A stretch of 43,983 bases of DNA, taken from positions 1-43,983 of the forward strand of contig NZ_WTPX01000025.1 in NCBI RefSeq assembly GCF_013036045.1, read 5' to 3'. Position numbers and translations under genes: made by a program. This DNA is from Alienimonas chondri (GTDB lineage Bacteria > Planctomycetota > Planctomycetia > Planctomycetales > Planctomycetaceae). The notes beneath the pieces are model-generated. The model was not told the origin of the DNA, did no database searches, and saw only the letters and a list, made by a program, of their open reading frames with translations. Of this stretch, positions 2,371 through 43,959 are shown piece after piece (position 1 is the stretch's first letter; the number at the start of each line of letters is the position of its first letter).

Positions 2371-3045
2371 TCAGCTGAGGTCCGCAGCGGCGAACAGTTC
2401 GTTCAACTCGATGCGGAAGCCGGGCAGAACCGGGTCGCCGACGAGAGCGTCGCCGGGGCCGAGCGGGCGGTCGTCGTCCGGGCCGGCCCAGATGACGGCG
2501 GTGCGGGCCTCGGGGTCGACCTCCCAGACCCGCACCACGCCCGCGGCGAAGTAGATGGACCGTTTTCGCTCCATCTCCCGGCGGGTGTTGCCGGGCGAGA
2601 GCACCTCGACGACTAGCGCCGGCGGCACGTCGGAATAGCCCTGCCGCCGGAGTCCGTCCGGCCGGGCGGCCCGCGGGGTGAAGGAGGCGTCCGGCGCCCG
2701 CAATCCGTCAATGAAGTGGAAGAACCCGTCCGCCGGGTGAACCCAGCCGAGCTTGCCGGGTTCGACAAAGTTGCCCAACAGCCGGACGAACTCGCCGCCG
2801 AGCCAAGACGAAAGGTCGCTCACGGCTTTCTCGATCAGGGTTCCGTCGATTAACTCGAACACGCCGACGCCGCGGGCGTTGATGCGGGCGTGGTCCTCCT
2901 CGGTCGCCGTGCCGGGGGCGGGGTCGCGGACGACCCGCGAGCCGGGAATGGGGCCGAAGCGATCCAGCAGGTCGGCCAGCGTTAGCCCCGGCGACGAAGC
3001 CGGGGCACGGGGCGCTTGGATGGGCGAATCGATCACGGCGGACAT
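2371..3045 (-). CDS. Uma2 family (DUF820) PD-(D/E)XK nuclease-fold protein
   Basis: The 224-residue protein has the family hallmarks: a PDASF segment (Asp119), the core strand PPALVVEVLSPGN (Glu147), Lys161 in an ERKRSIYFAAGV helix, the VRVWEVDPEA strand and a late LPGF motif. These fit the PD-(D/E)XK fold. Uma2 proteins are abundant in cyanobacteria and planctomycetes, usually as scattered single genes, and their real substrate is unknown. This copy stands alone, convergent with cysS and divergent from kdsD. The acidic and basic residues of the core look intact, so it is not an obvious pseudogene. Endonuclease activity is inferred from the fold only. Confidence 0.88.
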   Translation of the reverse strand: MSAVIDSPIQAPRAPASSPGLTLADLLDRFGPIPGSRVVRDPAPGTATEEDHARINARGVGVFELIDGTLIEKAVSDLSSWLGGEFVRLLGNFVEPGKLGWVHPADGFFHFIDGLRAPDASFTPRAARPDGLRRQGYSDVPPALVVEVLSPGNTRREMERKRSIYFAAGVVRVWEVDPEARTAVIWAGPDDDRPLGPGDALVGDPVLPGFRIELNELFAAADLS

Positions 3046-3152: not shown

Positions 3153-4169
3153 GTGGGTCTGCCCGCCGTTCAAGCCGATGTTGCTCAGGACCTCGTTCCC
3201 TTCGACCGATTCGCCGCGGCGAATCGGGCCGCGGAGGTGCTGCGCGCGGAGGCCGACGCACTGTTCGCTCTGGCCAAGGCGCCGCCGGCGGGGCTGATGG
3301 AGGCGGCGGATCTGATCGAATCCCGCGGCGGGGGCGTGGTCGTCACGGGGATGGGCAAGGCGGGGTTGGTCGGACGCAAGATCGCCGCGACGCTGGCGAG
3401 CCTCGGCACGCCGGCCTGCGTGCTGCACCCGGGCGAAGCGGTGCACGGGGATCTCGGCATGGTTCGCGACGATGCGACCGTCCTCGCCCTGTCGCACAGC
3501 GGGGAGACGGCGGAGGTCACCCAGATTCTCGCCTCGCTGAGCCGCCGCGGCGTGCCGGTGGTCGCGGTCACGGCCAAGGAAACCAGCACGCTGGGCCGGG
3601 CGGCGGCGGTGGTCGTGGCGATGGGCAAGCTGCGGGAAGCGGACGCCCATAACCTCGCCCCCACGGTCAGCACCTGTGCGATGATGGCGCTGGGCGACGC
3701 CCTCGCCGTGCTGCTGAGCGAACGCGCCGGCTTCACCCCGGACCGCTTCGCCGCCTTCCACCCGGCCGGCTCGCTGGGTCGCAAACTGGCCCGGGTCGAT
3801 GAGGTGATGCGCACCGGCGACGCGTTGCGGGTGTTCACGGACGATCAACCGGTGCGTAAGGTGCTGGAGACGTCGCAGGGCGAACGCCGCACCGGCGCCG
3901 TGATGCTGACCGACCCCGCCGGCCGGCTGACCGGCCTGTTCACCGACAGCGATCTCGCCCGACTGCTGGCCCGGCGGGGGGAACACGAACTCGACCGTCC
4001 CATCCGCGCCGTGATGACCCGCGAGCCGATCACCGTCTCGCCGGACGGCTCCGTCGGGGAGGCCGTCAGCCTGTTGAAACGTCGGAAGCTCAGCGAGTTG
4101 CCGGTCGTCGACGCCGCCGGGCGCCCGATCGGGCTGGTGGACATCACCGACTTGATCGGCTTGGTTTGA
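3153..4169 (+). CDS. kdsD: Arabinose-5-phosphate isomerase (KdsD/KpsF family), SIS plus two CBS domains
   Basis: Interconverts ribulose-5-phosphate and arabinose-5-phosphate, the first step toward Kdo of lipopolysaccharide. The SIS domain fills about residues 20-205, with GMGKAGLVGRKIA, HPGEAVHGDLGM, the sugar-phosphate loop SHSGET, LAPTVSTCAMM and HPAGSLGRKL. Two CBS motifs follow (about 213-270 and 283-338), the second ending LPVVDAAGRPIGLVDITDL. The length of 338 matches the family (about 328). The start is GTG, with GGAG about ten bases upstream. It is followed after 47 bases by the giant LptC/LptA-like gene, mirroring the proteobacterial kdsD-kdsC-lptC-lptA order without kdsC. The alternative, a sugar-phosphate isomerase for another glycan, is less likely. 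Confidence 0.92.
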   Translation: MGLPAVQADVAQDLVPFDRFAAANRAAEVLRAEADALFALAKAPPAGLMEAADLIESRGGGVVVTGMGKAGLVGRKIAATLASLGTPACVLHPGEAVHGDLGMVRDDATVLALSHSGETAEVTQILASLSRRGVPVVAVTAKETSTLGRAAAVVVAMGKLREADAHNLAPTVSTCAMMALGDALAVLLSERAGFTPDRFAAFHPAGSLGRKLARVDEVMRTGDALRVFTDDQPVRKVLETSQGERRTGAVMLTDPAGRLTGLFTDSDLARLLARRGEHELDRPIRAVMTREPITVSPDGSVGEAVSLLKRRKLSELPVVDAAGRPIGLVDITDLIGLV

Positions 4170-4216
4170 ACCGCTTGGTTTGAACCGGGACCGATCCGCT
4201 TCTCACAAACGCCGCC

Positions 4217-7200
4217 GTGTCGAATCCCGATTCCCGCCGCACCGCTCCCGGCCCCGGCGCTCCGGCGATCGGACCGCGGTACGGGCCGACGTCCGTCACC
4301 CGTCGGGCGGCGCTGACGACCGGCGCCGCGGCGGGGCTGACGGGGCTGTATCTGGCGTATGCGGCGACGGTCACGCCGCTGCTCGAATCCGCCCGGATGA
4401 AGGCGGACACCGAAGCCGAGGGCCGCGAGAAGGGGATCCTCGCTCCGAAGTCCAACAAGGAACTCGCCCAACGCTACCTGCCGCATGCGCCGTTCGCCGA
4501 GGAGGCGAAATATCAGATCGGCTCCGGCAACAGCATGATGTATTGGAACGAGTGGGAGATCGTGGAGCGGGGCGAGAAGAGCGCCTTGCAGGTCTCCCCG
4601 TTCGCGATGGTCGTCGTGGACGACGCCGGCCTCGATCCCGAAACCGGCGGCAAGCCGCCCACGACCGTCACGGCGGGCAAAGCCCTGCTGCGGTTTGAAT
4701 CGAACATCTCCGAGGAGATGGTCTCCAGCCCCGGACGGGTCGTCAACGGCGTCTTTCAAGGTGCCGTGCGGGTCGACGGCGAAGGCGGGTTGCAGATCGT
4801 CGGCTCCAATTTTCAATACTGGGAGGGCGACCCGACGAACAAGTTCTCCATTCTGTTAAGCGACTATCCCGTCGACTTCCGCCACGGCGGCTCGAACCAT
4901 ATCGACGGCGACGGGGAGCGGATCGCCCGCGGGCATGAGGGCCACGGCAAGGGCGTGGAGGTGAAGCTGTTCCGCACCCGCACCCCCGGGTCCTACGACA
5001 ACATCGCCGCCGACGGCCTCGCCGAGGTCGCCGTGCGCGGTCCGGTCGCGCTCACCCTGCAAAGCGGCAGCGGCCTGCCCGGTCTCGATGCCGCCGGCGG
5101 CCCGCTGGCCGACGCCGACGCCGAAGCGGTCGAGGACGTGAATCAGGACGAACCGCGTCAGCCGGTACACATCACCGCGACCGGGCGGCTGGTGTTCGAT
5201 CCGCACGCCAACACGGCTCTGTTCACCGCGATCGAACCGGAGGGCGTCCGCGCCTGGCGGGACCAACCGGCCGGCACCGTGCCGCCCTCGCCGGATCGGG
5301 CGGGACCGGACGAGCTGATCGCCGACGACCTGCTGGTCATGTTCTCCCCCGCGACGCCGGAAGCTCGCGAGGAAGCCGCGGCGATGCGGGCCGCCCGCGA
5401 GAACCGCAACTGGGACGACCGGGGGTTCTACGCCGCCGACGACGATCTCGAAGCGACCGCCGTCATCGCCAACGGCGCCCCGGTCCGGGTGAACTCGCCG
5501 GCCCGGCAGGTTCAGACGACCTCCGCCCGCTTGGAACACGACGTTCGCAAGGACGTCCTCACCCTGATCGGCCGCACCGACGGCGACCGCCCGCAACCGG
5601 CCACCGGCGTGCAGCCCGCGGTGTTCCGACAGGCGGCCCGACTCCGCCCGGAACTGGGCGACGTCGTGCGGGTGATGCTGCCGGACTCCGTCATCGATTG
5701 TCCGCGACTCGTGGTGATGCCGCCGGAGATCCCGGCGGGCGTCGACCCGAAATCCGTCGACGCCCCCCGGCGGATCAATGCGCTCGGCCCCGGGACGCTG
5801 CGGCGGACGGACCCGGAAACCGGCGAACCCGCTGCGCTGGTCAAATGGCCGGGCACGCTCACAACCCAGCGCGACGCCGGGAACGGGCGGGACGTCGTCA
5901 TTCTCACCGGCCCGAAGCGGCCCCAGCGGGATGCGAACGGGCACACGGCGCTGGCCGATCAGGTGATCGTGCAGACCTTCGCGGAAGGCTCCGACCTCGC
6001 GGCGGATCACATCGTCCTGGAGTTGGAGAAGAACCCGGACGCCGACAATCAGCCGCCGTCCGACGCGAACGGCAGCGCCCCGCCGGAGAACGACGGCGCC
6101 CTGGCCGGAGCGGACCCGATGGGCGGGAAGATGCGACCGGCGAAGGCGATCGCGACCGGCTCCGTCCGCATGAAGGGGCCGGAGCTGCTCGCCGGGGCGA
6201 AGAGCGTGCATGTCGACTTCGTCGATCCCCCGCCCCTGCCCCCCAAACCGCCGGGCGACGCGGTCGCCGACGCCGGCGGAGCGGGCGGACCGGGCGCCGC
6301 CACGCCCGCGGAACCGACGCCGGAGCCGGAGAAGGAAGAGCCGAAGCAACCCGGCCCGCTCTCCAAGTTCTACGCGGACGACATCGTCGCCACGCTGGTC
6401 CGGGCCCGGACCGACGAACGGGGCGTCGAGGTGCAGGAAGGCTACGTCTCCCACGGCGTCGCCACCGGTCAGGTCGGCCTCTTCCAGGACGCGGCCCCGC
6501 CGACCGAACCCGGCGGGAAGGGACGCGATCGGCGCTATGCCAAAGCTTCCAGAATGGTCGTCACCGGCGCCGGCCCCGGCGAGCAATTGCTGACGATGTT
6601 CGGCAAGGAAGCGACCGAGGACTCCCCCGCGATCCCCGCGGAACTCGAGGGCAGCGGCTCCGACCTCACCGGGCCGGAGATCCGCTTCGATCCCCAGAAG
6701 AACACCGCCGTCGTCGTCGGCGCCGGCTGGCTCAACCTGCCCGTCAAAGGCGGGGGCATGCCGGGGTTCGCCGGCGCCTCCGAACCGGACCCGGCCGCAC
6801 AGCTCTCCGCGGACGAGGAGGACCCGGACCTCCCCTCCCGCAAATCGGTGCGGGTGGACTGGCGCGAATCGATGACGTTCGACGGCAGCGTTGCGACGTT
6901 CTACGGCGGCGCCCGCACCTTGTTCCACGGCATCGAGGGCGAGGTCGGTTCGCCGCAATATACGGAGGACACCGTCAGCCTGTATTGCAAATTGATGACC
7001 GTCACCCTCACGGAGAAGGTCGTCTTCGGCTCCTCCCTGCCCGGCGCCGAGCGGTCTCCCAGCGAACGGGGGCCGGGGGATAAGAAGGCGAACGAAGCCG
7101 AGATCAAACTCATCACCTGCCACGGCCGGGTGAACGTCCGCGGTCGGCAGGACGCCCCGGACCCGCGTCAGGCCAATCCCAAGGAACGACTGGTCCCGCG

Positions 7201-7906
7201 CGAGGCCCAGCGGGTCGAGGCCTCCTTCGCCCAGTTGGAAGTGCTGTGGAAGACCGGCGACTTCACCGCCCAGGGCGAGGGCGATATGAAGGTCTGGCGC
7301 CGCGACGACAAGACCGCCCCCGCCCCCGCCGGGAACGCCACGGTCCGGCCGAACGCCGGTCGCCAGCGGAGCATCGCCCTCCCCTGCGAATTAATTCACG
7401 TCGTCTTCAAGCGGGACGTCCGCGGCAACCTGAACGGCCCGGATGCGATCTTCCACCCGAATGCCGACGGCGACGTGGAAGTGACCCACGGCCCCGTGCG
7501 GGACTTCGGCGTGCCGCTGCTGACCGGCCCGGCGGTCTCCCTGCCGGCGGGCGCTTCGCGGATGAAGTCGCGTCGACTCGAACTGCGACACGTCGCCGCC
7601 GCCAATGCGGACGAACCCAAGACCCGCGAGCTGTTCGCCAGCGTCAACGTGGAGATCGAGGGCCACGGCGAATCCAACGACGGCAAGCCCGGCGCCTGGT
7701 ACTGGGCCAACGCCCCGCAGGCGACGTACAACGAAGCGAAGGACCGTTTGCAGCTCAACGGCAACGCCGACGGCCTCGTGCAGTTGTATCGCGCCGCCAC
7801 CGAAACCGGCCCGCGGACCCTCGCGACCAGCCGTACGATCGTCTACTTCCCCGAGACGAATAAAGTCGACGTGAAGGGCGTCCAGGATCTCGACGGCTTG
7901 CCGTGA
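4217..7906 (+). CDS. Giant membrane-anchored protein with LptC-like and LptA/OstA-like regions
   Basis: The 1229-residue protein starts at GTG. A basic N-terminus is followed by one hydrophobic helix at about residues 31-50, then a long periplasmic part. Residues about 95-260 form beta-rich sequence (a YWNEWEIVERG segment, later LLSDYPVDFRHGG) that I read as LptC-like. The last 150 residues have the LptA/OstA rhythm: an ATYNEAKDRLQLNGNADGLV segment, then TIVYFPETNKVDVKGV. Between them lie further predicted beta segments and Pro/Glu-rich linkers (about 600-710). LptC is normally about 190 residues and LptA about 185, so this would be a fusion with extra repeats. The position directly after kdsD supports a role in lipopolysaccharide transport, but the family call is from pattern, not a profile hit. 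The TRRAALTTGAAAG start also resembles a Tat signal. Confidence 0.55.
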   Translation: MSNPDSRRTAPGPGAPAIGPRYGPTSVTRRAALTTGAAAGLTGLYLAYAATVTPLLESARMKADTEAEGREKGILAPKSNKELAQRYLPHAPFAEEAKYQIGSGNSMMYWNEWEIVERGEKSALQVSPFAMVVVDDAGLDPETGGKPPTTVTAGKALLRFESNISEEMVSSPGRVVNGVFQGAVRVDGEGGLQIVGSNFQYWEGDPTNKFSILLSDYPVDFRHGGSNHIDGDGERIARGHEGHGKGVEVKLFRTRTPGSYDNIAADGLAEVAVRGPVALTLQSGSGLPGLDAAGGPLADADAEAVEDVNQDEPRQPVHITATGRLVFDPHANTALFTAIEPEGVRAWRDQPAGTVPPSPDRAGPDELIADDLLVMFSPATPEAREEAAAMRAARENRNWDDRGFYAADDDLEATAVIANGAPVRVNSPARQVQTTSARLEHDVRKDVLTLIGRTDGDRPQPATGVQPAVFRQAARLRPELGDVVRVMLPDSVIDCPRLVVMPPEIPAGVDPKSVDAPRRINALGPGTLRRTDPETGEPAALVKWPGTLTTQRDAGNGRDVVILTGPKRPQRDANGHTALADQVIVQTFAEGSDLAADHIVLELEKNPDADNQPPSDANGSAPPENDGALAGADPMGGKMRPAKAIATGSVRMKGPELLAGAKSVHVDFVDPPPLPPKPPGDAVADAGGAGGPGAATPAEPTPEPEKEEPKQPGPLSKFYADDIVATLVRARTDERGVEVQEGYVSHGVATGQVGLFQDAAPPTEPGGKGRDRRYAKASRMVVTGAGPGEQLLTMFGKEATEDSPAIPAELEGSGSDLTGPEIRFDPQKNTAVVVGAGWLNLPVKGGGMPGFAGASEPDPAAQLSADEEDPDLPSRKSVRVDWRESMTFDGSVATFYGGARTLFHGIEGEVGSPQYTEDTVSLYCKLMTVTLTEKVVFGSSLPGAERSPSERGPGDKKANEAEIKLITCHGRVNVRGRQDAPDPRQANPKERLVPREAQRVEASFAQLEVLWKTGDFTAQGEGDMKVWRRDDKTAPAPAGNATVRPNAGRQRSIALPCELIHVVFKRDVRGNLNGPDAIFHPNADGDVEVTHGPVRDFGVPLLTGPAVSLPAGASRMKSRRLELRHVAAANADEPKTRELFASVNVEIEGHGESNDGKPGAWYWANAPQATYNEAKDRLQLNGNADGLVQLYRAATETGPRTLATSRTIVYFPETNKVDVKGVQDLDGLP

Positions 7907-8002: not shown

Positions 8003-9400
8003 CTACTCCGATAAATCGGCTCGCACCAGCTCGTTGTCGTTCCGCCAGAACACGCTCTTCATCGCGTAGGCCGGCTGGACCCAGACGACCCGGCGGCCGC
8101 CGGCGATCTGGGTGGGCTTCAATAACGTCTTAGAGCCGGAGATCGTCGCGCCCTCGGGGGAGAGCGTGCCGCTTTGCAGTTCGCCGGTCTCCACGGCGAA
8201 GTAGGCGGCGTTCGTGTCGCGGATCGGGGTCGTGAAGATCGTGCCCCAATTCATGCGGCTGTCGAAGAATTCCCGGTCTTGGGCGAGGCGGTCGCCGGAC
8301 CGCATGTCCGCGACGATATAGACGCCGCTTTTATCGGGGCTGAAGATCGCCCCGTTCTCGCCCATGCCGGGGGCGACGACCGGCGTGTTCATGACGCCGT
8401 TCATCCCCGTGCGGGCGTCGCCGCGCCAGAGGATCTGCGGCTCGTCCGTCGGGTCGACGGCGAGCTTGACCATCGCGCACTGCGAGGAGTCCTCGGCCAT
8501 GCAGAACAGCAGGCGGTCGTCCCCGTCCTCGACCAGCACCGGGTGCGCGATCGACATATTATATTGCGGGGCCAATCCCACGCTCCAATGCACCTCGCCG
8601 GTGGCCGGGTCGACGGCGTTGAGGCTCTCCGCGGTCCACGCGGCGAGGAACTCCTTGCCGTTCACCTCATACAGCGCCGGCGGAGCGTAGCCGACTTCAT
8701 CCTCCGCCCGGCAGGCCTTCCACTTCAGTTCGCCGGACGTTTTGTTCACGCACAGCAGCGCCCCGTCCGTCGGACCGGCGATCACGTACAGGTTCTCGCC
8801 GTCGATCAGCGGGTGCGAGGCGAAGCCCCAGATCGGGACCGTCGAACCGAACTTCTCGACGACGTTATAGCCCCACACCTTCGCTCCGGTCCGAGCGTCC
8901 AGACAAACCAAATCGCCCATCGCCCCGAGGAAATACACCCGTCCGCCGGGGCCGCCGAGACCGCCGGGTTCGATCTCCACCGTCGGCGTGACCCGCGGGC
9001 CGGCGGGGTATTGAATGCGATAGGTGACCTGCGGGGCGTACTCCCACACGGCGTCGCCGGTTTTCGCATCGAGGCACAGCACCCGTTCCTTGCCGGAAAG
9101 GTCGGGGTTGGAGAACTGGTTGTCGGGGAAGGCGTCGGGGTCGTCGATCACCCAGTCTGCGACGAACACCCGTCCGCCGGCGACCGCCGGGCCGGCGTAG
9201 CCGCCGCCGATCTTCACCCGCCACAGCTCCTTCGGCGGCGTCTTCGAGAAGTCCGTCGTCACGCCCGTTTCCCGATAGACGCCGTCCCGCTGCGGGCCGA
9301 GCCACTGCGGCCAGTCGTCGGCGGAGGCGACCGCGGCGCTCGCCAGACACAGGACGATCGCCGACGGGGCGAACGTCGGCAGGGAGAAGGGCGAACGCAC
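8003..9400 (-). CDS. Exported PQQ-like beta-propeller repeat protein
   Basis: The 465-residue protein begins with a signal peptide (hydrophobic core about residues 8-24, ending AVASA) and the mature start DDWPQWLGP, which is typical of planctomycete PQQ-like propellers. Repeated blades include KERVLCLDAKTGDAVWEYAP, GDLVCLDARTGAKVWGYNV, LLCVNKTSGELKWKA and LNAVDPATGEVHWSVG, the tryptophan-docking pattern of the PQQ/BamB propeller fold. Such proteins may be quinoprotein-like or pure scaffolds; no catalytic quinone ligands can be assigned by eye. I chose the GTG at 9400 because the open frame upstream overlaps the plus-strand gene at 9528 and lacks a signal peptide at its start. No partner gene is obvious nearby. 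Confidence 0.85.
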   Translation of the reverse strand: MRSPFSLPTFAPSAIVLCLASAAVASADDWPQWLGPQRDGVYRETGVTTDFSKTPPKELWRVKIGGGYAGPAVAGGRVFVADWVIDDPDAFPDNQFSNPDLSGKERVLCLDAKTGDAVWEYAPQVTYRIQYPAGPRVTPTVEIEPGGLGGPGGRVYFLGAMGDLVCLDARTGAKVWGYNVVEKFGSTVPIWGFASHPLIDGENLYVIAGPTDGALLCVNKTSGELKWKACRAEDEVGYAPPALYEVNGKEFLAAWTAESLNAVDPATGEVHWSVGLAPQYNMSIAHPVLVEDGDDRLLFCMAEDSSQCAMVKLAVDPTDEPQILWRGDARTGMNGVMNTPVVAPGMGENGAIFSPDKSGVYIVADMRSGDRLAQDREFFDSRMNWGTIFTTPIRDTNAAYFAVETGELQSGTLSPEGATISGSKTLLKPTQIAGGRRVVWVQPAYAMKSVFWRNDNELVRADLSE

Positions 9401-9513
9401 GGCGGCCTCGGGGAATGTGGTTTGAACGGGCCTCGCATCATGCGGCGCGGGTCGACGGGGGCAACTGAATCGCCGCGGGCGTGCGCATGTCTGTCCGCCC
9501 GCTGCGGCGCTCC

Positions 9514-9519
9514 TACAAT
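9514..9519 (+). promoter_or_regulatory. Possible -10 element giving a near-leaderless transcript
   Basis: TACAAT (5 of 6 to consensus) sits only 8 bases before the ATG at 9528. A poor -35 (ctgtcc, 9491-9496) is 17 bases upstream. If used, the mRNA would begin at or next to the start codon. This is weak evidence. Confidence 0.3.
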
Positions 9520-9527
9520 GCAGACCG

Positions 9528-9908
9528 ATGCCCAAAGCCGCCCCCGACGATTCGCCGACCTCTGCCGACGCGGCGACTCCGCCCGGTCCTCCCGTCACCG
9601 CGCCGAACAAACGGGTCATCGTCCGCGGCCTGATGATCGGCGGGGCGTTGGGCGGCGCCTTCGGGGCGATGAACCTCGCGGCTGGCGATGCGGGGGTGAA
9701 CACCGGCGTGAACATTGAACGCCCCGCTCCCGGCGAACCGGAACGGCCCGGCGCCGAGAACTGGCACGCCCAGGCCGCTCGCTACACCGGCTGGTGCGTC
9801 TTCGGCGGGGCGCTGCTGGGCGGTCTGTCCGGCGCCGCCGCTCTCGCCCGCGATTCGCTCCGCGGCGGAGCGGAGCGTCCGCCGGCCGGCTACGACGACG
9901 GGAGATGA
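9528..9908 (+). CDS. Small membrane protein with two hydrophobic segments
   Basis: The 126-residue product has a Pro/Ala-rich N-terminus, a Gly-rich hydrophobic segment at about 36-52 (GLMIGGALGGAFGAMNLAA) and a second at about 89-107 (WCVFGGALLGGLSGAAALA). The two glycine-rich helices could form a hairpin in the membrane. I do not recognise the family. It is divergent from the beta-propeller gene and lies 151 bases before the VWA gene, with a perfect inverted repeat in between. The reading frame has normal composition, unlike the Arg-rich frames overlapping it, so I believe it is real. Confidence 0.6.
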   Translation: MPKAAPDDSPTSADAATPPGPPVTAPNKRVIVRGLMIGGALGGAFGAMNLAAGDAGVNTGVNIERPAPGEPERPGAENWHAQAARYTGWCVFGGALLGGLSGAAALARDSLRGGAERPPAGYDDGR

Positions 9909-13068: not shown

Positions 13069-13258
13069 CGGGTTCGATCCCTGCGGAGAGTGAGCGCATT
13101 GCAGCAGGCCGATGATCGTGACTTTCGCCGGAGCGGGCGACCAGCGAGCCCGTCGCCGAACCGTCGCCGAACGGGGACCAATCGGGCCGAGGATTGGATT
13201 CGAAAAAACCTCGGACTCGTGTGAACCGCGGGGCGTTCGGCGACGTATCGTCGTCGCC

Positions 13259-14428
13259 ATGTACGATCTGCCCCCCGCCGACCGTTCCGAATCCCTGCTG
13301 ACCCGCTACGGTCGTCCCGTGCGTTGGGCGGCGTCGCGGATTCCCACGCCGGGGCGGGTCGAGCGATGGGCGCGGCGCCATCCACGCGTCGCGACGTTCG
13401 GGTTGGGACTGTCGCTGACGTTGGGAGCGGCGACGTATCCGCACGCCTCGGCCGCCTGGAACGGGCATGTCGTTCGCTATCAGGGGCATCCGGTCCAGTT
13501 CGGTCAGTACCTGGATCGGGATCTCCGCCGCATCGCCCCGCTGCCGACGGACTCGCTGTTCTGGCTCACGCCGGTCGCGGCGACCTACCAGCGAGACGCC
13601 CCGCATTCCGGCACGGTGAACGAGTTCCTGGACCGGCTGGACGGCATGCCCCATGTCGCCCGCGTCGCGTTCAATCGGGCGACGCTCTCCGCGGAGCAGA
13701 GCGCCCGAGCCGCGGCCCGTCATCGCCACGCGACGCTCGATCTGCGACATTGCTCCATCGCGTGGGGCGGCCTCCGGCCCTTCACCTCCAAGACGAATTT
13801 GCATCGCGTTCGCCTCACGCACTGCTTGCTGCCGCCCGAGGAACTGGCGCCGCTGGCGGACGCCGCCGGACTGATCAGTCTCGATCTGAGCGGCAGCGTC
13901 GGGGTGAGCGGGGGACTCGCCGCGTTGGCCGGGCACCCGGCGCTGTCGGAGACGCGGGCCGCCGGCTCGGATCTGAACGACGCCAGCTTCGCCGCGCTCG
14001 TTCACTGTCCTTCGATCGCCTCCCTGCAACTGGATCGAACGAACGTCACCGACGAAGGCCTCGCGATGATGGACGGCGCCGCGACGGGGTTGATCAGTCT
14101 GTCGCTGGCCCACACGAACGTCAGCGATTGGGGCGTGGCGTCGATGGGTTCGCACCCGCAATTGTCCGCGCTGGATCTCTCCGGCACGAACGTGACCGAC
14201 GCCGGCCTGTGGTCGCTGGTGCAGAACTGTCCGAACCTCGACGCCCTCACGCTCAGCGGCACCGCTGTCTCGGACGAAGGGCTGGCGGCGCTCGTCCATC
14301 TCCCGAAACTCTCGGCGCTGGATCTGTCCGAGACGAACGTGACCGACGCCGGCCTGGCCGAGGCCGCGGAACGACACGGCTGCACCGCGATCGCCGCATC
14401 GGGCGTCATCGAATGCACGGCCGGATAG
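13259..14428 (+). CDS. Membrane-anchored leucine-rich repeat protein (copy 2)
   Basis: The 389-residue protein has one hydrophobic segment at about 47-65 (ATFGLGLSLTLGAATYP) after a basic N-terminus, then a mature domain. The C-terminal half has regular 24-residue repeats such as LQLDRTNVTDEGLAMMDGA, LSLAHTNVSDWGVASMGS, LDLSGTNVTDAGLWSLVQ and LTLSGTAVSDEGLAALVHL. The repeats are more regular than in the copy at 11211, with which it shares the region before the repeats. The start is the ATG at 13259; an upstream in-frame extension lies in the divergent gap and is not supported. Probably surface-exposed, with a protein-binding role inferred from the fold. Confidence 0.84.
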   Translation: MYDLPPADRSESLLTRYGRPVRWAASRIPTPGRVERWARRHPRVATFGLGLSLTLGAATYPHASAAWNGHVVRYQGHPVQFGQYLDRDLRRIAPLPTDSLFWLTPVAATYQRDAPHSGTVNEFLDRLDGMPHVARVAFNRATLSAEQSARAAARHRHATLDLRHCSIAWGGLRPFTSKTNLHRVRLTHCLLPPEELAPLADAAGLISLDLSGSVGVSGGLAALAGHPALSETRAAGSDLNDASFAALVHCPSIASLQLDRTNVTDEGLAMMDGAATGLISLSLAHTNVSDWGVASMGSHPQLSALDLSGTNVTDAGLWSLVQNCPNLDALTLSGTAVSDEGLAALVHLPKLSALDLSETNVTDAGLAEAAERHGCTAIAASGVIECTAG

Positions 14429-16612: not shown

Positions 16613-19003
16613 TTAGCTCTCGTCCGCGGGCTTCAGGCGCTCCGCCGCCAGCTTGAGACCGGCCAGACGAGCGGCGACGGCGTCGCGTTCGGCGGCGGGA
16701 TCCGGCAAGGCGTCCGCTTCCTTCTTCTTCTCCTCCGCGGGACCGATCGCTTTCTCGGCAGCCTCGGCGGCCTTCTTAGCGGCGTCCAGATCCTTCGGCA
16801 GCTGCTTGACCGCAGCCTCCGCGACGGCAAGCTCCGCGGCGATTCGCTTCGATTCGGCTTCGGCCGCGTTCTGAGCGTCCTTTGCGATCTGCGCCTCTTT
16901 CGCGGCCTGCTGCGAGGCCTCCACGGCTTTCGCCGACTCTTCCATCGCCTTCGCCGCCGCCTGTTCGGCGGCCTTGAGGGCTTCGTCCGCCGCTTTTTTG
17001 GCGTCCTCAGCCGCCTTCTTCGCCTCGGCAAGCTCTTTCTGGGCAGCTTCCGCGGCCTGCTTGGCGGCGTCGGCCGCATCGCCCTCGGCGCTCTCGGCGG
17101 CCTTCGTCGCTTCCGCGGCTTGGCCCTCGGCGGTTTCGACCGCATCGGCGGCCTCCTTGGCGGCCTCGGTTTGTTGCGACCGGGCGCTCTCGACGGCCTT
17201 GGTCGCCTCAGCGGCGTTCGCCTCGGCCACCTTCGCGGCTTCGGCCGACTTCTTCGCGGCCTCGGCGGCCTGTTTGGCGGCCTGCTCCGCCTTGGACGTC
17301 GCTTGCTTGGCCTTCGAGGCGGCCTCGGCAAGTTCCTTCCGGGACTTCTCCGCGGCCTCTTTCTCCTTGGCGACCGCGGCGACGCGCTCGGCGGTCGCCT
17401 TCTTCGCTTCCTGAGCCTGCTGCACCGCGGCGGCGGCGTCCGCCCGGCGTTTGGCGACGCCCTCGGCGGCGGCGGTCAGCTCCTTCAATTTGGTTTCGGC
17501 GGCGGCAATCCGCTCCGGCATCGGCGGCGGAACCGGGGAGAACTCCGCGGCCAGTTCGCCGGTAGCGGGATCGAACGCGGCGACCTGACCGGTCCAGTCC
17601 CCGACGAAGACCCGCGGACTCCGCTTCCCGTCGGCGGCGGCGACGGCTTCATCGGCACAGGCGACGGACAGCGCGAAGTCCGGCCGCTTGGGGAAGTCTT
17701 TGAGCTGCTTACCGTCGATGCCCCATGTCGAGCTGCCGCCGTTGCGGCCGGCGACGGCGAAGGTGCCGTCCGCGGCGAACGCGACGGACTCCGCCCCGCT
17801 GACCCTCAAGTCCACTTTGCGGACCAGTGCCCCGTCCTCCGGGTTCCAGAGATGAACCGTGTCGTCCAGGCTGGAGGAGGCCAGCAGGTTTGAGTCGGCC
17901 CGCCAGCTGAGGCCCGTGATCGCGTCCCGATGGCCGCGGAGGTCGGCGTAAAGCAGACCGCTGGCGGCTTCCCACATGCTGAGGTTGCCGCCGCGGTCGC
18001 CGATCGCCAGCAGCACGCCGTCCGGGCTGAACGCGACCGCCGTCGCCCAGTCGGTGGGTTTCTCGATCATATAAACCATCTCGCCGGAGGCGACGGCGTA
18101 GACCTTCACCTTCTTGGAGGTGGTGCCGATCGCGACGAGCGATTGATCCGGGGAGATATCCGCGGCGAGCACGGCATCCGGCTCCTCGCCGATCTCCATC
18201 ACGCGAGCGCCGGTGGTGACGTCCCAGACGACCGCCAACCCGCGATACGCCCCGCGACCGCCGCCGGCGATCAGCAGGCGACCGTTCGTGCTGAACTTCA
18301 ACGACTGCGGCCGGCCTTCCGGGAAGGGCAGCACGCCCCAGGGCTGAAGCGAATCGGCGTGGAACAGCAGCACTTGGCCGTCGCCCCCGATCGCGATCAG
18401 CGGCGCCCACTGGCTGGCGGCCATCGCGACGACGGCGTCCGCACGATCGCCCACGCGGCCTTCGACGGGGATCGCCTCGACGGACAGCGGCTTCGGATCG
18501 GCGTCATAAGAGGCCGCGTCGTACGGGTTGGGCGGCATCGGCGGCGGGCCGTCGGGACGGCCGATCGGGGCGGCGCCCAGCGACAGATCCTCCTTCGGCT
18601 TCATCTTCACCTTGGAGCCGGCGTTCTCGCGGGCGCCGGTGTCGATCCATTTCTTCAGCGTCGCCAGATCCGCGTCGGCCATCTTCGCCCCGTTGGGCGG
18701 CATCACCGGCTCGGCCTCGTGGGCGGCGAGCATATAGAGGTAGCTGTACTCGCCGTCCCCGGGGCTGACGACCTCGCCGCTGCCGCCGCCCTGCATCAAC
18801 GCGGCGAACTGGGACATATTCAAGCCGCCCTCCTGCTTGTCGGCGTTATGACAGCCCACGCACTTCGCCCGCAGAATGGGCAGCACGTGGTCGTCATAGG
18901 TCAGCGGCTTTTCCTCTTCGCCTTCTGCGCCGCACGCCGGCGACGTCCAGAGCGAGAGAGGGCAAACCAGCAGTACGGCGAGCGGGGCGAGGCGGAGCGA
19001 CAT
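16613..19003 (-). CDS. Planctomycete cytochrome-WD40 propeller protein with long Ala-rich coiled coil
   Basis: The 796-residue exported protein has a signal peptide (about 1-26), then a PSCyt1-type cytochrome c domain with the haem motif CVGCH (Cys48, Cys51, His52) and a likely distal ligand region EPVMPPNG. A WD40-like propeller follows at about 190-490, with blades such as VVWDVTTGARVMEIGEEPD and GHRDAITGLSWRADSNLLAS. About residues 500-780 form an extremely Ala/Lys/Glu-rich helical region (KAAEEA-type heptads) that predicts a long coiled coil. Cytochrome-WD40 fusions are typical of planctomycetes; the tail is the unusual part. It is last in the run with DUF1549/DUF1553, PPC and DUF1501 genes, and a 34-bp palindrome lies in the upstream gap. 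Confidence 0.88.
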   Translation of the reverse strand: MSLRLAPLAVLLVCPLSLWTSPACGAEGEEEKPLTYDDHVLPILRAKCVGCHNADKQEGGLNMSQFAALMQGGGSGEVVSPGDGEYSYLYMLAAHEAEPVMPPNGAKMADADLATLKKWIDTGARENAGSKVKMKPKEDLSLGAAPIGRPDGPPPMPPNPYDAASYDADPKPLSVEAIPVEGRVGDRADAVVAMAASQWAPLIAIGGDGQVLLFHADSLQPWGVLPFPEGRPQSLKFSTNGRLLIAGGGRGAYRGLAVVWDVTTGARVMEIGEEPDAVLAADISPDQSLVAIGTTSKKVKVYAVASGEMVYMIEKPTDWATAVAFSPDGVLLAIGDRGGNLSMWEAASGLLYADLRGHRDAITGLSWRADSNLLASSSLDDTVHLWNPEDGALVRKVDLRVSGAESVAFAADGTFAVAGRNGGSSTWGIDGKQLKDFPKRPDFALSVACADEAVAAADGKRSPRVFVGDWTGQVAAFDPATGELAAEFSPVPPPMPERIAAAETKLKELTAAAEGVAKRRADAAAAVQQAQEAKKATAERVAAVAKEKEAAEKSRKELAEAASKAKQATSKAEQAAKQAAEAAKKSAEAAKVAEANAAEATKAVESARSQQTEAAKEAADAVETAEGQAAEATKAAESAEGDAADAAKQAAEAAQKELAEAKKAAEDAKKAADEALKAAEQAAAKAMEESAKAVEASQQAAKEAQIAKDAQNAAEAESKRIAAELAVAEAAVKQLPKDLDAAKKAAEAAEKAIGPAEEKKKEADALPDPAAERDAVAARLAGLKLAAERLKPADES

Positions 19004-19066
19004 GGGGCGAATCGTCGGGGACTCGGAAATCTGTTGGACAATCTCGGCGTCAACGGCATCTATGAC

Positions 19067-19100
19067 GTAACGCCGAGGCTCCGCGGAGCCTCGGCGTTAC
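19067..19100. terminator. Perfect 34-bp palindrome between cytochrome genes
   Basis: gtaacgccgaggctccg at 19067-19083 is followed immediately by its exact complement at 19084-19100. It begins 13 bases after the DUF1549/DUF1553 stop on the minus strand and precedes the next gene by 63 bases. There is no U-tract on either side, so termination, processing or 3'-end protection are all possible. Confidence 0.65.
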
Positions 19101-19112
19101 GGGCGGGACTGA

Positions 19113-21665
19113 TCAGTGGTTGAACAGGAACTCGCGGCTGTTCAACACCGCCCAGAAGTAGTCTTCCAGCACGGCTTTGGGTTCTTCGCCCTCCGCGAGA
19201 GCCTCTTCCAACGCTTTCTTCTCCGCATCCGTCGGCTCGCGGGAGAGACAGCGGGCGGTGATTTCCGCCAGCACTTCGGCGGGTTCCATCGGCGGAATGT
19301 CCTCGGCGCCGTCCTGGCCCTTCTCGCCTTTCAACAGCGATTCGACGACCTTCCCACGTTGAACCTTGTCGTGCACCGTGCTGCCGTTGAGCAGGTGCAA
19401 CGCCTGGGCGAGGTTCGGATCGGTCCGCACTTCGCAGCTGCACACGGTTTCCCGTTTGGCGCGGCCGAAGGTGTCCAGGAAATAGGTGCTGGTGTTGCCG
19501 TCGGCGATCTCCACCGCCCGGCTGCCCAGCGGCAGACCGCGAAACTTCTCGGAGGTATCCGTGACCGCATTGATGCTGTCGAGCATCACTTCGGCCCGCA
19601 TCCGACGCAGCTTCGCGGAGGCGAAGTTGGCGGTGTCCGCGACGTTCGTCGGATTCGTCCGGGTCGCCAGTTGATAGGTGCGACTGGCGCAGATGTCCCG
19701 CACGAGCCCCTTCAGGTCGTAGCCGCTTTCGATAAACCGCTGGGCGAGCGCGTCCAGCAGCGCCTCGTTGGCGGGCGGGTTGGAGATCCGCACGTCGTCC
19801 ACCGGCTCCACGATTCCGCGGCCGGTGAAGTGCGCCCAGACCAGGTTGACGATATTCCGGGCGAAGTACGGGTTCTCCTCGGAGGTCAGCCACTCCGCCA
19901 GCACTTCGCGGCGGTCGCGTCCCTTGAAGCGTTCGTCGTTGGCGAAGTCCGGCTGCTCGCCGCCCAGGAACTTCGGATCCACATCCTTGTTCGTGACCGG
20001 GTGCTTCACGGAGCCGCTGTTGCGGTTGTAAACGATCCGCTCGCGGGGATCGTCGGAGTTCTTCGTGCTCACCTGAGCGAAGAACGAGGCGAACCCGTAG
20101 TAGTCGTCCATCGTCCACCGGTCGAACGGGTGGTTGTGACATTGGGCGCACTGAATCCGCATGCCCATGAACACCTGGGCGACGTTCTCCGCGGTCTTCA
20201 GCGTGTCGCGTTCGGTCCGGTAGTAGTTGGTGGCCGGGGTGTCGAACGTTCCGCCGCTGCTGGCGAGCAGTTCGCGAACCATCTGATCGACCGGCACGTT
20301 GCCGTCGATCTGCTCCTTGAGCCAACGGTGATACAGCACCGCTTCCTTGCCGGTCAGGACGTTGTTGTCCGTGCGGATCGTCAGCAGTTCGGCCCACTTC
20401 ATCACCCAGATGTCCGCGAACGCCGGCTTCTCCAGCAATTCGTCGACCAAGGCCTGACGCTTGGAGGGATCGGTGTTTTCGAGGAACTCCCGGGTGGCGT
20501 CGGCCGGCGGAACCACGCCGACGAGATCCAGATAGGCCCGGCGAACGAACTCCGCGTCGGTGCAAAGCTCGCTGGGCTTGATCCGCAGCGTGGCGAGCTT
20601 CGAATAGATCGCCTCGTCGATGTAGTTGGCGGGAGTTTTGTCCTCCGGCCATTCAAACTGCACGTTCTTCGGCAAAATGATGCTGGGCACGCCGACGGTA
20701 TGCACGTCGAACCGGGCCGTGATGAACGCTTCCGCGCCCCCGGTGCCGGTCACCGGACCGGCGGTGACGACGCCGGCGTCGTCGATCGGGGCGGTGATCG
20801 GGTTGTCCGTGTTAAAGGCGACGAGGTGCGTCACGTCGCGGTCGGTGCCGTCGGCGTAAGTGGCCACGGCGACCATCCGCTGGGTCGTACCTTCGCCCGT
20901 GAGGGCGAATTCCGGCGGGTACAGATCCAGGGAGACGCAGGCCGGCGGGGCGGTCGCCGGGTCGGCCCCGTCGTCCTTGGCGCCGTCGGCGATCCAGCTG
21001 AGGATCAGGTCCGCGTATTCACTGTCCGGCTCGAACAGTTTGCCGCCGGTGTGGGAGACGGCGCCGGTGCTCTTCTCGAATATCAGGCTGCGTTCGGGCA
21101 CGCCCAGGTTCAGCCGACGTCCGCTCTGCTCACGGGTCAGGCGGAAGTGATCGCCCGCCGGATCGAAGCCGAACAGGCTCAGGCGGAAGCCGTCTTTTCC
21201 GCGGGCCGCCCCGTGGCAGGAGCCGTTGTTGCACGCGGAGCGGGCGAACACCGGCATCACGTCGTTGCGGAAGCCGACCGGCGGGGTGACGCCGGACTCG
21301 ACCACCGTCAGCGGCACTTCGACCTTCTGGTCTTCGTACGTCACCGTCACGGAGGTGACGCCGTCGGCGGCGGGGTGATAGGTGAACCCGCCGTCCTCGC
21401 CGACGCTGGCTTTCGCGAAGCGATCGTCGGCGGCGACGAACTTCGCGTCGGCGGTGACGTCGCGCGTCGTGCCGTCCGACAGCGTCAGGACGGCGATCAC
21501 GCTCTGGCGATCGCGGGCGGTCGAGAGGTGCACCGCGGGCGGGTACACGTTCAACGCGACCGCGGTCGGCGCGGCGTTCGGATTCGGCGCCGAGGCCTCG
21601 GCATCGGGTCCGGCCGCGACCGGTCCGCTGGTCAGGAGAGCGGCAGCGAGGAGCAGAGGGGTCAT
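19113..21665 (-). CDS. Exported DUF1549/DUF1553 planctomycete cytochrome with two Ig-like domains
   Basis: The 850-residue protein has a signal peptide (about 1-19), an Ig-like (Big_2 type) domain at about 35-125, then CNNGSCH (Cys145, Cys150, His151), a CX4CH haem-like motif. A second Ig-like domain lies at about 243-330. DUF1549 (PSCyt2, about 347-555) contains the canonical CAQCH (Cys506, Cys509, His510) in IQCAQCHNHPFDRW. DUF1553 (PSD1, about 590-845) has NIVNLVWAHFTGRGIVEPVD and ends FLFNH. The families are planctomycete-rich, of unknown biochemical role, and act outside the cytoplasmic membrane. The start codon overlaps the stop of the PPC gene (TGATG at 21663-21667), so translation is probably coupled. 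Confidence 0.93.
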   Translation of the reverse strand: MTPLLLAAALLTSGPVAAGPDAEASAPNPNAAPTAVALNVYPPAVHLSTARDRQSVIAVLTLSDGTTRDVTADAKFVAADDRFAKASVGEDGGFTYHPAADGVTSVTVTYEDQKVEVPLTVVESGVTPPVGFRNDVMPVFARSACNNGSCHGAARGKDGFRLSLFGFDPAGDHFRLTREQSGRRLNLGVPERSLIFEKSTGAVSHTGGKLFEPDSEYADLILSWIADGAKDDGADPATAPPACVSLDLYPPEFALTGEGTTQRMVAVATYADGTDRDVTHLVAFNTDNPITAPIDDAGVVTAGPVTGTGGAEAFITARFDVHTVGVPSIILPKNVQFEWPEDKTPANYIDEAIYSKLATLRIKPSELCTDAEFVRRAYLDLVGVVPPADATREFLENTDPSKRQALVDELLEKPAFADIWVMKWAELLTIRTDNNVLTGKEAVLYHRWLKEQIDGNVPVDQMVRELLASSGGTFDTPATNYYRTERDTLKTAENVAQVFMGMRIQCAQCHNHPFDRWTMDDYYGFASFFAQVSTKNSDDPRERIVYNRNSGSVKHPVTNKDVDPKFLGGEQPDFANDERFKGRDRREVLAEWLTSEENPYFARNIVNLVWAHFTGRGIVEPVDDVRISNPPANEALLDALAQRFIESGYDLKGLVRDICASRTYQLATRTNPTNVADTANFASAKLRRMRAEVMLDSINAVTDTSEKFRGLPLGSRAVEIADGNTSTYFLDTFGRAKRETVCSCEVRTDPNLAQALHLLNGSTVHDKVQRGKVVESLLKGEKGQDGAEDIPPMEPAEVLAEITARCLSREPTDAEKKALEEALAEGEEPKAVLEDYFWAVLNSREFLFNH

Positions 21666-24412: not shown

Positions 24413-24451
24413 GGGGCGGCTCCCGGGCTTGGGGGAGAAACAAAAGGGGAT

Positions 24452-24484
24452 CGTTAGCCGTCCTCTTGAAGAGGACGGCTAACG
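24452..24484. terminator. Palindromic hairpin between DUF1501 and PPC genes
   Basis: Arms of 16 bases (cgttagccgtcctctt at 24452-24467 and its complement at 24469-24484) are separated by one base. It lies in the 100-base gap after the DUF1501 stop on the minus strand. Like the palindrome at 19067 it sits inside an apparent operon and has no U-tract. Confidence 0.6.
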
Positions 24485-24512
24485 CACGAAACAGAGGATC
24501 GCGACGCGAGAA

Positions 24513-25835
24513 CTAGGCGAGCAGCGCTTCGATGGGCGTGCCGCCGTCGACGATCTCGATCGGGCGACCGCCGGGGGACATCAGTTCCTTGCTGGCCCGA
24601 ATGCCGAGCCGGTCGTACACGGTGGCGGCCCAGTCCATCACGGTGACCGGATCGGTGTCCGGCTCGGACGCGGTCGCGTCGCTGCTGCCGTAGACGACGC
24701 CCCGTTTCAGGCCGCCGCCCGCCATCAGCACGCTGAACACCTTCGCCCAGTGGTCGCGGCCGGCGGTGTTGTTGATCTTCGGAGTCCGGCCGAACTCGGA
24801 GCCGACGCACACCAGCGTGCTGTCCAGCAGGCCGCGTTCGTCGAGATCGGAGATCAACGTGGACAGCGCCTGGTCCAGATCCGGGCCGCTCCGCTTGAAG
24901 CCGTCCGCGATCTTGTCGTGCATATCCCACCCGCCGTAGGTGAGGGTCACGAACTTGCTGCCGGCTTCGACCAACCGACGGGCCAGCAACATCCGGGCGC
25001 CGGCCTGGTTGCGGCCGTAGCGGTCGCGGGTCTTGGAGTCTTCCTTCTCCAGGTCGAACGCTTCGCGGGCCTTCGGGTTGCCGATCAGCCCGTAGGCCCG
25101 GTCGTAGAAGCTGCCGACGGCGTCGAGGCTATCGTCGCTCTCGGTGGAGGCGAAGTGGTCGTTGACGGCGTCCAGCAGGCGACGGCGCCGGGTGAACCGG
25201 GCGTCGTCCACGCCGTTCGGCAGGCTCAGGTCGCGGACCTTGAAGCCGTTCTGAGCCGGGTCGCCGCCGACGGTAAAGGGGGCGTAGCTGCTGGAGAGGT
25301 AGCCGGTGCCGGCGAACTCGTTCGGCTGGCCGGGCACGCAGATGTACTGCGGCAGGTTGTTCTTCGGCTCGAACTCGTGGGCGACCACGCTGCCCATCGA
25401 GGGGAACTTCAGCGCCGGGCTGGGCCGATACCCGGTGAACATGTTGTGCGTGCCGCGCTCGTGAGCGGCTTCGCCATGGGTGAAGCCCCGCATCACGACG
25501 CACTTGTCGGCGATCGCGGCGGTTTTGGGGAAGGTCGCCCCGAACTCGACGCCGGGCAGCTTGGTCTTCACGGTGCCCAGCGGGCCGCGGTACTCCGCGG
25601 GGGCCAGGGGCTTCGGATCCCAGCTTTCCTGCTGGGCCATGCCGCCGGGCAGGTAGATATAAATGACGCCCTTCGCGGGGCCCTCGACGGTCTCGAAGAA
25701 CGCCTGATCGGCGCGAGCCGCCTGCTGCATCCCGAGGAATCCGGGAAGCGTGAGCCCGAGACCTCCAATGGCGCCGACTTGCAGGAAGTCGCGGCGAGAC
25801 GGACCGGCGCACCGGCGTGCACGAGGAGAAGTCAT
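24513..25835 (-). CDS. Tat-exported DUF1501 family protein
   Basis: The 440-residue protein begins with a twin-arginine signal (SRRDFLQ at 13-19, then a hydrophobic GAIGGLGLTLPGFLG). The DUF1501 body follows: KGVIYIYLPGGMAQQESWDP, FTHGEAAHERGTHNMFTGY, VTLTYGGWDMHDKI, SEFGRTPKINNTAGRDHW and the C-terminal VMDWAATVYDRLGI. The family belongs to the alkaline-phosphatase/sulfatase-like superfamily and keeps Asp/His/Glu positions that could bind metals, but no activity has been established to my knowledge. Tat export implies folding in the cytoplasm, often with a cofactor. It is the first gene of the four-gene minus-strand run down to 16613, so the promoter should lie in the 354-base gap upstream. 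Confidence 0.93.
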   Translation of the reverse strand: MTSPRARRCAGPSRRDFLQVGAIGGLGLTLPGFLGMQQAARADQAFFETVEGPAKGVIYIYLPGGMAQQESWDPKPLAPAEYRGPLGTVKTKLPGVEFGATFPKTAAIADKCVVMRGFTHGEAAHERGTHNMFTGYRPSPALKFPSMGSVVAHEFEPKNNLPQYICVPGQPNEFAGTGYLSSSYAPFTVGGDPAQNGFKVRDLSLPNGVDDARFTRRRRLLDAVNDHFASTESDDSLDAVGSFYDRAYGLIGNPKAREAFDLEKEDSKTRDRYGRNQAGARMLLARRLVEAGSKFVTLTYGGWDMHDKIADGFKRSGPDLDQALSTLISDLDERGLLDSTLVCVGSEFGRTPKINNTAGRDHWAKVFSVLMAGGGLKRGVVYGSSDATASEPDTDPVTVMDWAATVYDRLGIRASKELMSPGGRPIEIVDGGTPIEALLA

Positions 25836-43808: not shown

Positions 43809-43959
43809 GCAGAAATCCTCAGGCGGGCGACGACGGACGCGGGAGACGAACGAATCGATCATAGCCGCACGCCGACCGGCCGTTTAGGCTGCGGCAGTCC
43901 GTTGCCGGTTGTAAGGGTTCGCCCATGGTCGCCGCTCTGTTCCTCGCTGACCCGCTGCC

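Follow-up and report, generated by a model that had tools for sequence, protein, structure and literature searches.

A giant protein encoded downstream of kdsD in planctomycetes is probably an LptC-LptA fusion lengthened into a periplasmic bridge

The window analyzed here is a stretch of 43,983 nucleotides from the planctomycete Alienimonas chondri (contig NZ_WTPX01000025.1, positions 1 to 43,983), in which a kdsD-like gene, of the kind that serves synthesis of a lipopolysaccharide sugar, is followed by an open reading frame (ORF) for a giant protein of 1229 amino acids (aa). We consider it very probable that this protein unites LptC and LptA of the lipopolysaccharide transport (Lpt) system and, lengthened by extra units, serves as a one-chain periplasmic bridge that is widespread in planctomycetes. 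This conclusion is drawn from the gene order, the sequence profiles of relatives, the predicted fold, the internal repeats and the presence of Lpt, 3-deoxy-D-manno-oct-2-ulosonic acid (Kdo) and lipid A genes in the genome. In the Escherichia coli order kdsD-kdsC-lptC-lptA-lptB, the giant gene occupies the lptC-lptA position. Since the order kdsD-(kdsC)-giant gene mirrors the E. coli operon, we regard the giant gene as the stand-in for lptC-lptA.

The giant gene belongs to a conserved family

A preliminary description of this DNA had placed a kdsD gene 47 bases ahead of a gene for a 1229-residue protein, and this arrangement was borne out:

3153..4169, plus strand: kdsD-like gene (KpsF/GutQ family sugar-phosphate isomerase, SIS and two CBS domains), ORF of 338 aa
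4170..4216, plus strand: intergenic gap of 47 bases
4217..7906, plus strand: gene for the giant, probable LptC-LptA fusion protein, 1229 aa, GTG start

The short gap suggests that the two genes may form one transcription unit. The 338-aa KdsD-like protein carries a SIS domain and two CBS stretches and passed the curated cut-off of the KpsF/GutQ family (TIGR00393, 239.2 against 203.7 bits). It was far from reaching the equivalog cut-offs (E. coli KdsD, 225.5 against 505; GutQ, 218.3 against 481), and the label KdsD is therefore given by family and gene context only. Of 101 same-family genomes searched, 93 (the own genome among them) carry a relative of the giant protein, and these cover 55 of 58 genera; a plasmid collection gave no match. 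The copy in a genome of the same genus is 70% identical, while other relatives mostly share 25-38% over the aligned parts. Given this 70% identity and the matches in 93 of 101 genomes, the giant ORF is a real gene.

Sequence profiles of relatives point to LptC and LptA

No Pfam family was found in the window protein alone. In NCBIfam it gave only a weak match to LptA (TIGR03002, residues 1164-1222, E 0.11, 12.3 bits against a cut-off of 71.7), and neither LptC profile (TIGR04409, PF06835) matched. Relatives and fold were therefore needed to recognize the nature of the giant ORF. PF03968, which describes the N-terminal domain of LptA and LptD, matched 28 of 39 aligned same-family proteins at E <= 1 (best 8.3e-9), and at the same threshold TIGR03002 matched 26 (best 5.6e-9), TIGR04409 matched 19 (best 5.6e-7, 29.3 bits, under the cut-off of 38) and PF06835 matched seven (best 0.0038). 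When nine members were scanned singly, LptC matches fell at residues 156-223 in four of them and, weakly, at 77-127 in one; LptA-type matches lay at residues 249-389, 686-851 and 955-1043, and one member matched nothing. The profile of the 39 proteins found four matches among Protein Data Bank sequences at E <= 10; all are LptA, though each has only E 0.15-0.38. E. coli LptA aligned with the giant-family profile at residues 707-857 (E 4.9e-4), but with a probability of only 32%.

The most telling sequence evidence is provided by two shorter proteins, L204 (658 aa) and L207 (635 aa). They come from other families of the phylum and are encoded directly after kdsD-kdsC. The giant-family profile matches them at E 5.6e-22 and 4e-15, respectively. 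They score 71.6 and 62.1 with LptC TIGR04409 (cut-off 38) and 72.1 and 101.3 with LptA TIGR03002 (cut-off 71.7), and both also pass the PF06835 and PF03968 cut-offs. Judged by these profiles, L204 and L207 apparently join LptC and LptA in one chain.

A chain of Lpt-type jellyrolls is predicted behind a single helix

An AlphaFold model was obtained for residues 32-1229 with 61 relatives (mean predicted local distance difference test, pLDDT, 78.5; predicted template modelling score, pTM, 0.65), and the middle of the protein, residues 296-1062, was modelled alone (pLDDT 78.7, pTM 0.77). Structures were aligned with VIA-align 2 and folds were searched with Foldseek. The model consists of one N-terminal helix followed by 67 strands of at least 3 residues each, with a few short helices between them:

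4310..4387, plus strand: predicted N-terminal membrane anchor helix, about residues 32-57 (AlphaFold helix at model residues 2-25; hydropathy over 101 rows)
4529..5065, plus strand: predicted jellyroll 1, LptC-like, about residues 105-283 (model 74-252)
5156..5812, plus strand: predicted jellyroll 2, LptA-like, about residues 314-532
5813..6334, plus strand: continuing predicted beta region and low-confidence Pro-rich linker, about residues 533-706, boundaries uncertain
6335..7294, plus strand: predicted jellyroll region 4, LptA/LptC-like, about residues 707-1026
7376..7903, plus strand: predicted jellyroll 5, C-terminal and LptA-like, about residues 1054-1229 (model 1023-1198)

The protein had been described as membrane-anchored, and it is indeed predicted to be held by the single N-terminal helix. 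Its Kyte-Doolittle peak is only 1.32 (residues 38-56), below the usual 1.6, though hydropathy reached at least 1.2 within the first 110 residues in 100 of 101 aligned rows and at least 1.6 within the first 120 residues in 74 of them (the rows combine two overlapping sets).

The proposed LptC-like start was recovered as a fold match at about residues 105-283. Here, jellyroll 1 aligned with E. coli LptC structures 4b54 (Z 10.3, root-mean-square deviation (rmsd) 2.7 over 121 residues) and 3my2 (Z 10.1, rmsd 3.0 over 122), out of 125-126 residues. Likewise, the LptA/OstA-like end corresponds to a fold match at about residues 1054-1229, where jellyroll 5 aligned with LptA 2r1a_C (Z 11.2, rmsd 2.0 over 127 of 135 residues). 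Between them, jellyroll 2 matched 2r1a_C (Z 12.2, rmsd 2.1 over 124 of 135 residues), and region 4 matched LptC 6mjp_C at residues 789-1019 (Z 10.9, rmsd 3.3 over 130) and 4b54_A at 814-1026 (Z 9.9). The periplasmic domain of LptD, which has the same fold as these units, spans the border of units 1 and 2 (model 113-467, Z 12.3, rmsd 3.4 over 178) as well as the last two units (model 820-1185, Z 11.2, rmsd 4.4 over 171), and its alignments extend into the region of residues 533-706 (middle model 17-346). Non-Lpt matches did not exceed Z 8.0 in either alignment list, for the whole model or for the middle. In Foldseek, LptD occupied the top rows for both models with a probability of 1.00, and LptA rows also reached 1.00. 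Rows for Rhs, Tc-toxin, teneurin and DDB1 proteins had E values of 1e-7 to 1e-3 but probabilities below 0.45 and were discarded. The three residue ranges that the preliminary description had marked out for structural comparison (90-270, 830-1000 and 1080-1229) thus fit well with predicted Lpt-type jellyrolls, and the jellyroll or OstA fold on which its proposal depended is present in the model.

Extra beta repeats had also been proposed, and further LptA/LptC-like units are predicted in the middle of the protein. Comparing the family profile with itself gave a best off-diagonal match of residues 581-1197 with 342-1033 (E 3.5e-10, probability 96.7%), followed by 707-1030 with 143-490 (80.2%) and 1035-1194 with 292-473 (77.2%). 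Internal repeats and predicted folds taken together suggest that the chain has about five units of jellyroll size, with an uncertain border between units 3 and 4. At 4.8 angstrom per strand and with two sheets, the 67 strands stacked without a break could reach some 16 nm as a rough estimate. Within the fourth unit, Cys924 is invariant in 39 of 39 family members and Cys968 is present in 34 of 39. The pair could possibly form a disulfide, presumably reminiscent of those in LptD.

Gene order is kept in many planctomycetes

In all 38 same-family regions fetched, the giant gene follows kdsD in the same orientation, at a gap of -44 to 280 bases. The outer neighbors of the pair vary from genome to genome when the ORF lists of these regions are compared by eye. 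Because the pair is constant while its surroundings differ, the comparison suggests that selection may keep both genes together.

Wider loci were collected with a conserved KdsD segment from its CBS part (24 of 39 genomes) as bait, and the best 80 of 582 relatives were retained as named loci, which by their titles include Gemmataceae, Thermoguttaceae, Schlesneria, Rhodopirellula and Zavarzinella. An ORF of at least 300 aa that starts within 1200 bases downstream of kdsD was taken as a candidate giant ORF. Such an ORF was present in 74 of the 80 loci, and 73 of these 74 match the giant-family profile (66 of 67 once seven loci sharing DNA with profile rows were removed). The sole non-match, L116, has its candidate ORF cut by the contig end. 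Six loci were left out, L102 without a KdsD ORF by motif and L113, L118, L135, L145 and L150 without a long ORF by the distance rule; in L113 a 1076-residue frame lies farther on, outside this rule. Complete giant copies (n = 61) measure 974 to 1336 aa, with a median of 1079. Two loci with a long giant protein, L117 and L122, are labelled Candidatus Kuenenia and Bacteroidales; labels or binning may be wrong.

The gap between kdsD and the giant gene is below 400 bases in 27 of the 74 loci, as in the window, and at least 400 bases in 47. An ORF with a KdsC motif (strict form) fills 41 of these 47 wide gaps. A looser look added five, with DVDGSLT instead in L119, L129 and L156 and the motif itself in L131 and L134; L143 had no KdsC motif in either search. 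Hence kdsC, absent between kdsD and the giant gene in the window, is present there in other lineages. Sixteen regions from other families of the phylum gave a similar picture: KdsD was found near a giant-type protein in 11 and not in the region in five, a KdsC motif lay between the two in 10 of the 11, and a profile confirmed KdsC in the three tested (183.8, 158.3 and 171.7 bits against a cut-off of 106.95). In L200-L203 and L215, from other families of the phylum, relatives of 1019-1113 aa had no KdsD in the surrounding 14 kb. The fusion may thus persist without the kdsD operon in these lineages, and the L200 protein matches PF03968 at 3.2e-5. No lptB-like gene was found after the giant gene: none of the 61 complete named loci had an ORF with an ATP-binding cassette (ABC) ATPase pattern downstream (median of 1.9 kb available), and none of the 36 same-family regions (of 38) with downstream ORFs had both ATPase motifs in the first three.

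Partner genes are found elsewhere in the genome

Searches for single protein families covered the own genome, which is 97% complete and in 355 contigs. LptB is encoded by a gene separate from the giant locus (293.7 bits, cut-off 240), and 13 of 13 family genomes have one LptB gene each. Two genes of the LptF/LptG family (PF03739) exceed the cut-off and lie on separate contigs. An LptD-like protein of 1194 residues reaches 21.5 bits with PF03968 when its stretches are summed (cut-off 20.4; 18.0 alone), and the LptD barrel profile PF04453 did not match it (best E in the own genome, 0.97). Its homologues, 14 in 14 family regions fetched, were combined with it into a profile of 15 proteins that matches LptD 8h1r at E 6.2e-4; PF03968 is found in 15 of the 15 and PF04453 in three. 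Genes for LpxC and the Kdo transferase (WaaA) are also present. The proposal would have suffered from a genome devoid of other lpt and Kdo genes; instead, LptB, the LptF/LptG family, an LptD-like protein, LpxC and the Kdo transferase all occur. We detected no separate LptC or LptA in the own genome, and PF06835 matched no separate LptC at E <= 10.

The condensed locus of the preliminary description therefore holds for lptC and lptA, joined in one gene, and does not hold for lptB, which is a separate gene, or for kdsC, which is missing here.

Proposed mechanism and alternative explanations

Gene order, relatives' profiles and predicted fold are compatible with the following path. The single N-terminal helix would sit in the inner membrane in the LptC position, beside LptF/LptG. 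The first, LptC-like jellyroll would receive lipopolysaccharide or a lipid A-type glycolipid from LptB2FG, about four subsequent LptA/LptC-like jellyrolls in series would prolong the slide across the periplasm, and the LptA-like one at the end would dock on the LptD-like outer-membrane protein. We infer in this way that the giant protein spans the periplasm and exports lipopolysaccharide; its membrane topology, partners, continuous groove and cargo, as well as the dispensability of a separate LptA, would follow from the same reasoning. A further proposal, which we put forward tentatively and place somewhat short of an even chance, is that the LptA bridge of E. coli gives way here to a single covalent beta-slide, fixed in length and running from LptF/LptG to the LptD-like protein. 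How many jellyrolls a chain has (the observed lengths being 635 to 1336 aa) would then limit the width of the periplasm, and the chain would be the molecular ruler of the lineage.

Several observations weigh against the identification as an LptC-LptA fusion or leave it weaker. The window protein itself stays below every curated cut-off. E. coli LptC gave no alignment with the giant-family profile. Structure comparison is not specific for single units either, since LptC 6mit_C also aligns at the C-terminal end (about 1013-1229, Z 10.1) and LptC 3my2 also aligns to unit 2 (Z 10.2). LptC and LptA folds are too alike to distinguish the units. Fold alone being insufficient, unit 1 is assigned to LptC because of its position after the helix and the profiles of relatives. 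The PF06835 search misses the giant protein too, so another diverged LptC in the genome could have escaped it. KdsC (TIGR01670) had no match in the own genome at E <= 0.001; another phosphatase may substitute for it, or the gene may be missing from the assembly. Finally, only 45 of 148 genomes match the giant-family profile at E <= 0.001 in a phylum-wide search, and the other 103 are beyond its reach or lack the protein.

Among the alternatives, a mixed bridge deserves most attention, although we judge it rather unlikely. Here, the LptC-LptA fusion would be just one part, and further LptA-like units or the periplasmic part of the LptD-like protein would complete the path, which the giant chain by itself would be too short to cover. 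The identity of the giant protein is the same as in our preferred explanation, and the probabilities of the two overlap. The LptD-like protein does have its own LptA-type N-terminal region, and a few short ORFs carry weak LptA/LptD_N matches (G096:C1:1110843, 245 aa, E 0.014; G042:C1:5901272, 161 aa, E 0.38; G012:C692:5292, 110 aa, E 0.004), which could be separate LptA-like proteins or chance matches. On the other hand, among the 150 PF03968 matches listed for the 101 family genomes, 122 fall within frames of 950-1300 aa, a length shared by the giant gene and the LptD-like gene, 18 in frames of 400-950 aa, five in frames over 1300 aa and five in frames under 400 aa, one of which is a broken copy of the giant protein.

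It is far less probable that the protein carries a different lipid, either a phospholipid or a hopanoid, and works as the bridge-like lipid transfer proteins do (AsmA/TamB/YhdP, LPD-3), with kdsD adjacency being a historical accident. The LPD-3 complex 9cap_A, which we take to be such a protein, appeared among the Foldseek matches (probability 0.80 for the whole model, 0.60 for the middle), and planctomycete lipopolysaccharide has, to our knowledge, been little studied. However, the best-supported structural matches are LptD, LptA and LptC, with Lpt proteins holding all the highest Z values, relatives pass LptA and LptC cut-offs, and the linkage to kdsD/kdsC is kept in distant families. AsmA/TamB proteins were not among the Foldseek matches listed, which proves nothing. 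Lastly, GC-rich DNA could have misled the gene calling, or the assembly could be wrong, as might be suspected from the long ORFs that overlap the giant ORF on the opposite strand (4856-7123, 755 aa); both are ruled out by the relatives in same-family genomes and named loci, where same-frame homologues of about 960-1340 aa occur in dozens of genomes, single-contig ones included.

Other genes in the window

2371-3045, minus strand: Uma2 nuclease-like gene
8003-9715, minus strand: PQQ beta-propeller gene
13112-14428, plus strand: leucine-rich-repeat gene
16613-25835, minus strand: PSCyt1/WD40, PSCyt2/PSD1, PPC-domain and DUF1501 genes in a row
30919-33858, minus strand: DUF1559 gene
33998-35599, minus strand: TrkH cation transporter gene
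42573-43862, minus strand: glucose/sorbosone dehydrogenase gene

Discussion

The planctomycete loci share the order kdsD-(kdsC)-LptC-LptA with the E. coli operon. They differ from it in that a single gene encodes LptC and LptA together with extra jellyrolls, and in that lptB lies elsewhere; at the window locus kdsC is absent as well. With LptC (TIGR04409 / PF06835) the giant protein shares a predicted single N-terminal anchor helix and a predicted LptC-type jellyroll, but it has 1229 aa compared to 191 aa, and the window protein lacks a recognizable LptC sequence match. Predicted LptA-type jellyrolls (TIGR03002 / PF03968) occur at its C-terminal end and internally. In contrast to LptA, a free soluble periplasmic protein of about 185 aa, these units are covalently joined to the LptC part. 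Since they lie within a 1229-aa chain with a predicted anchor, we class the protein as a fusion containing LptA-type units and not as LptA. The fold of the LptD periplasmic domain is also shared, whereas a recognized barrel domain is missing and the genome encodes a separate LptD-like protein. The preliminary description had spoken of a different design for crossing the planctomycete periplasm; this is supported for the one-chain arrangement, which extends well beyond this genome and is widespread among planctomycetes.

In Borrelia burgdorferi a likewise diverged bridge outside Proteobacteria was recognized by gene order and AlphaFold, but its LptC and LptA are encoded separately, with lptB after them (PMC10353723). 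A 2022 survey of outer-membrane genes ranked the Lpt system of planctomycetes with the "largely reduced" ones and, in the 85 genomes whose synteny it checked, found clusters of lpt genes in Proteobacteria only (PMC8871954). A 2012 study of planctomycete genomes used LptD, BamA and TonB, and the terms "LptA" and "LptC" do not occur in its available text (PMC3422733). Two OstA proteins of about 200 aa are reported in diderm Firmicutes (PMC5007114), and the available sections of PMC9972910 and PMC5007114 contain no LptC-LptA fusion. Neither an LptC-LptA fusion nor any planctomycete LptA or LptC protein was described in the top-ranked results from the open-licence PubMed Central literature.

The seemingly missing Lpt bridge of planctomycetes hence appears to be present as a giant fusion, and this may explain why their export system looked incomplete. 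Its kdsD-kdsC context suggests that the gene order known from Proteobacteria is old. If the one-chain bridge is true, the number of LptA units needed, and whether the length of the bridge sets the width of the periplasm, would become directly testable.

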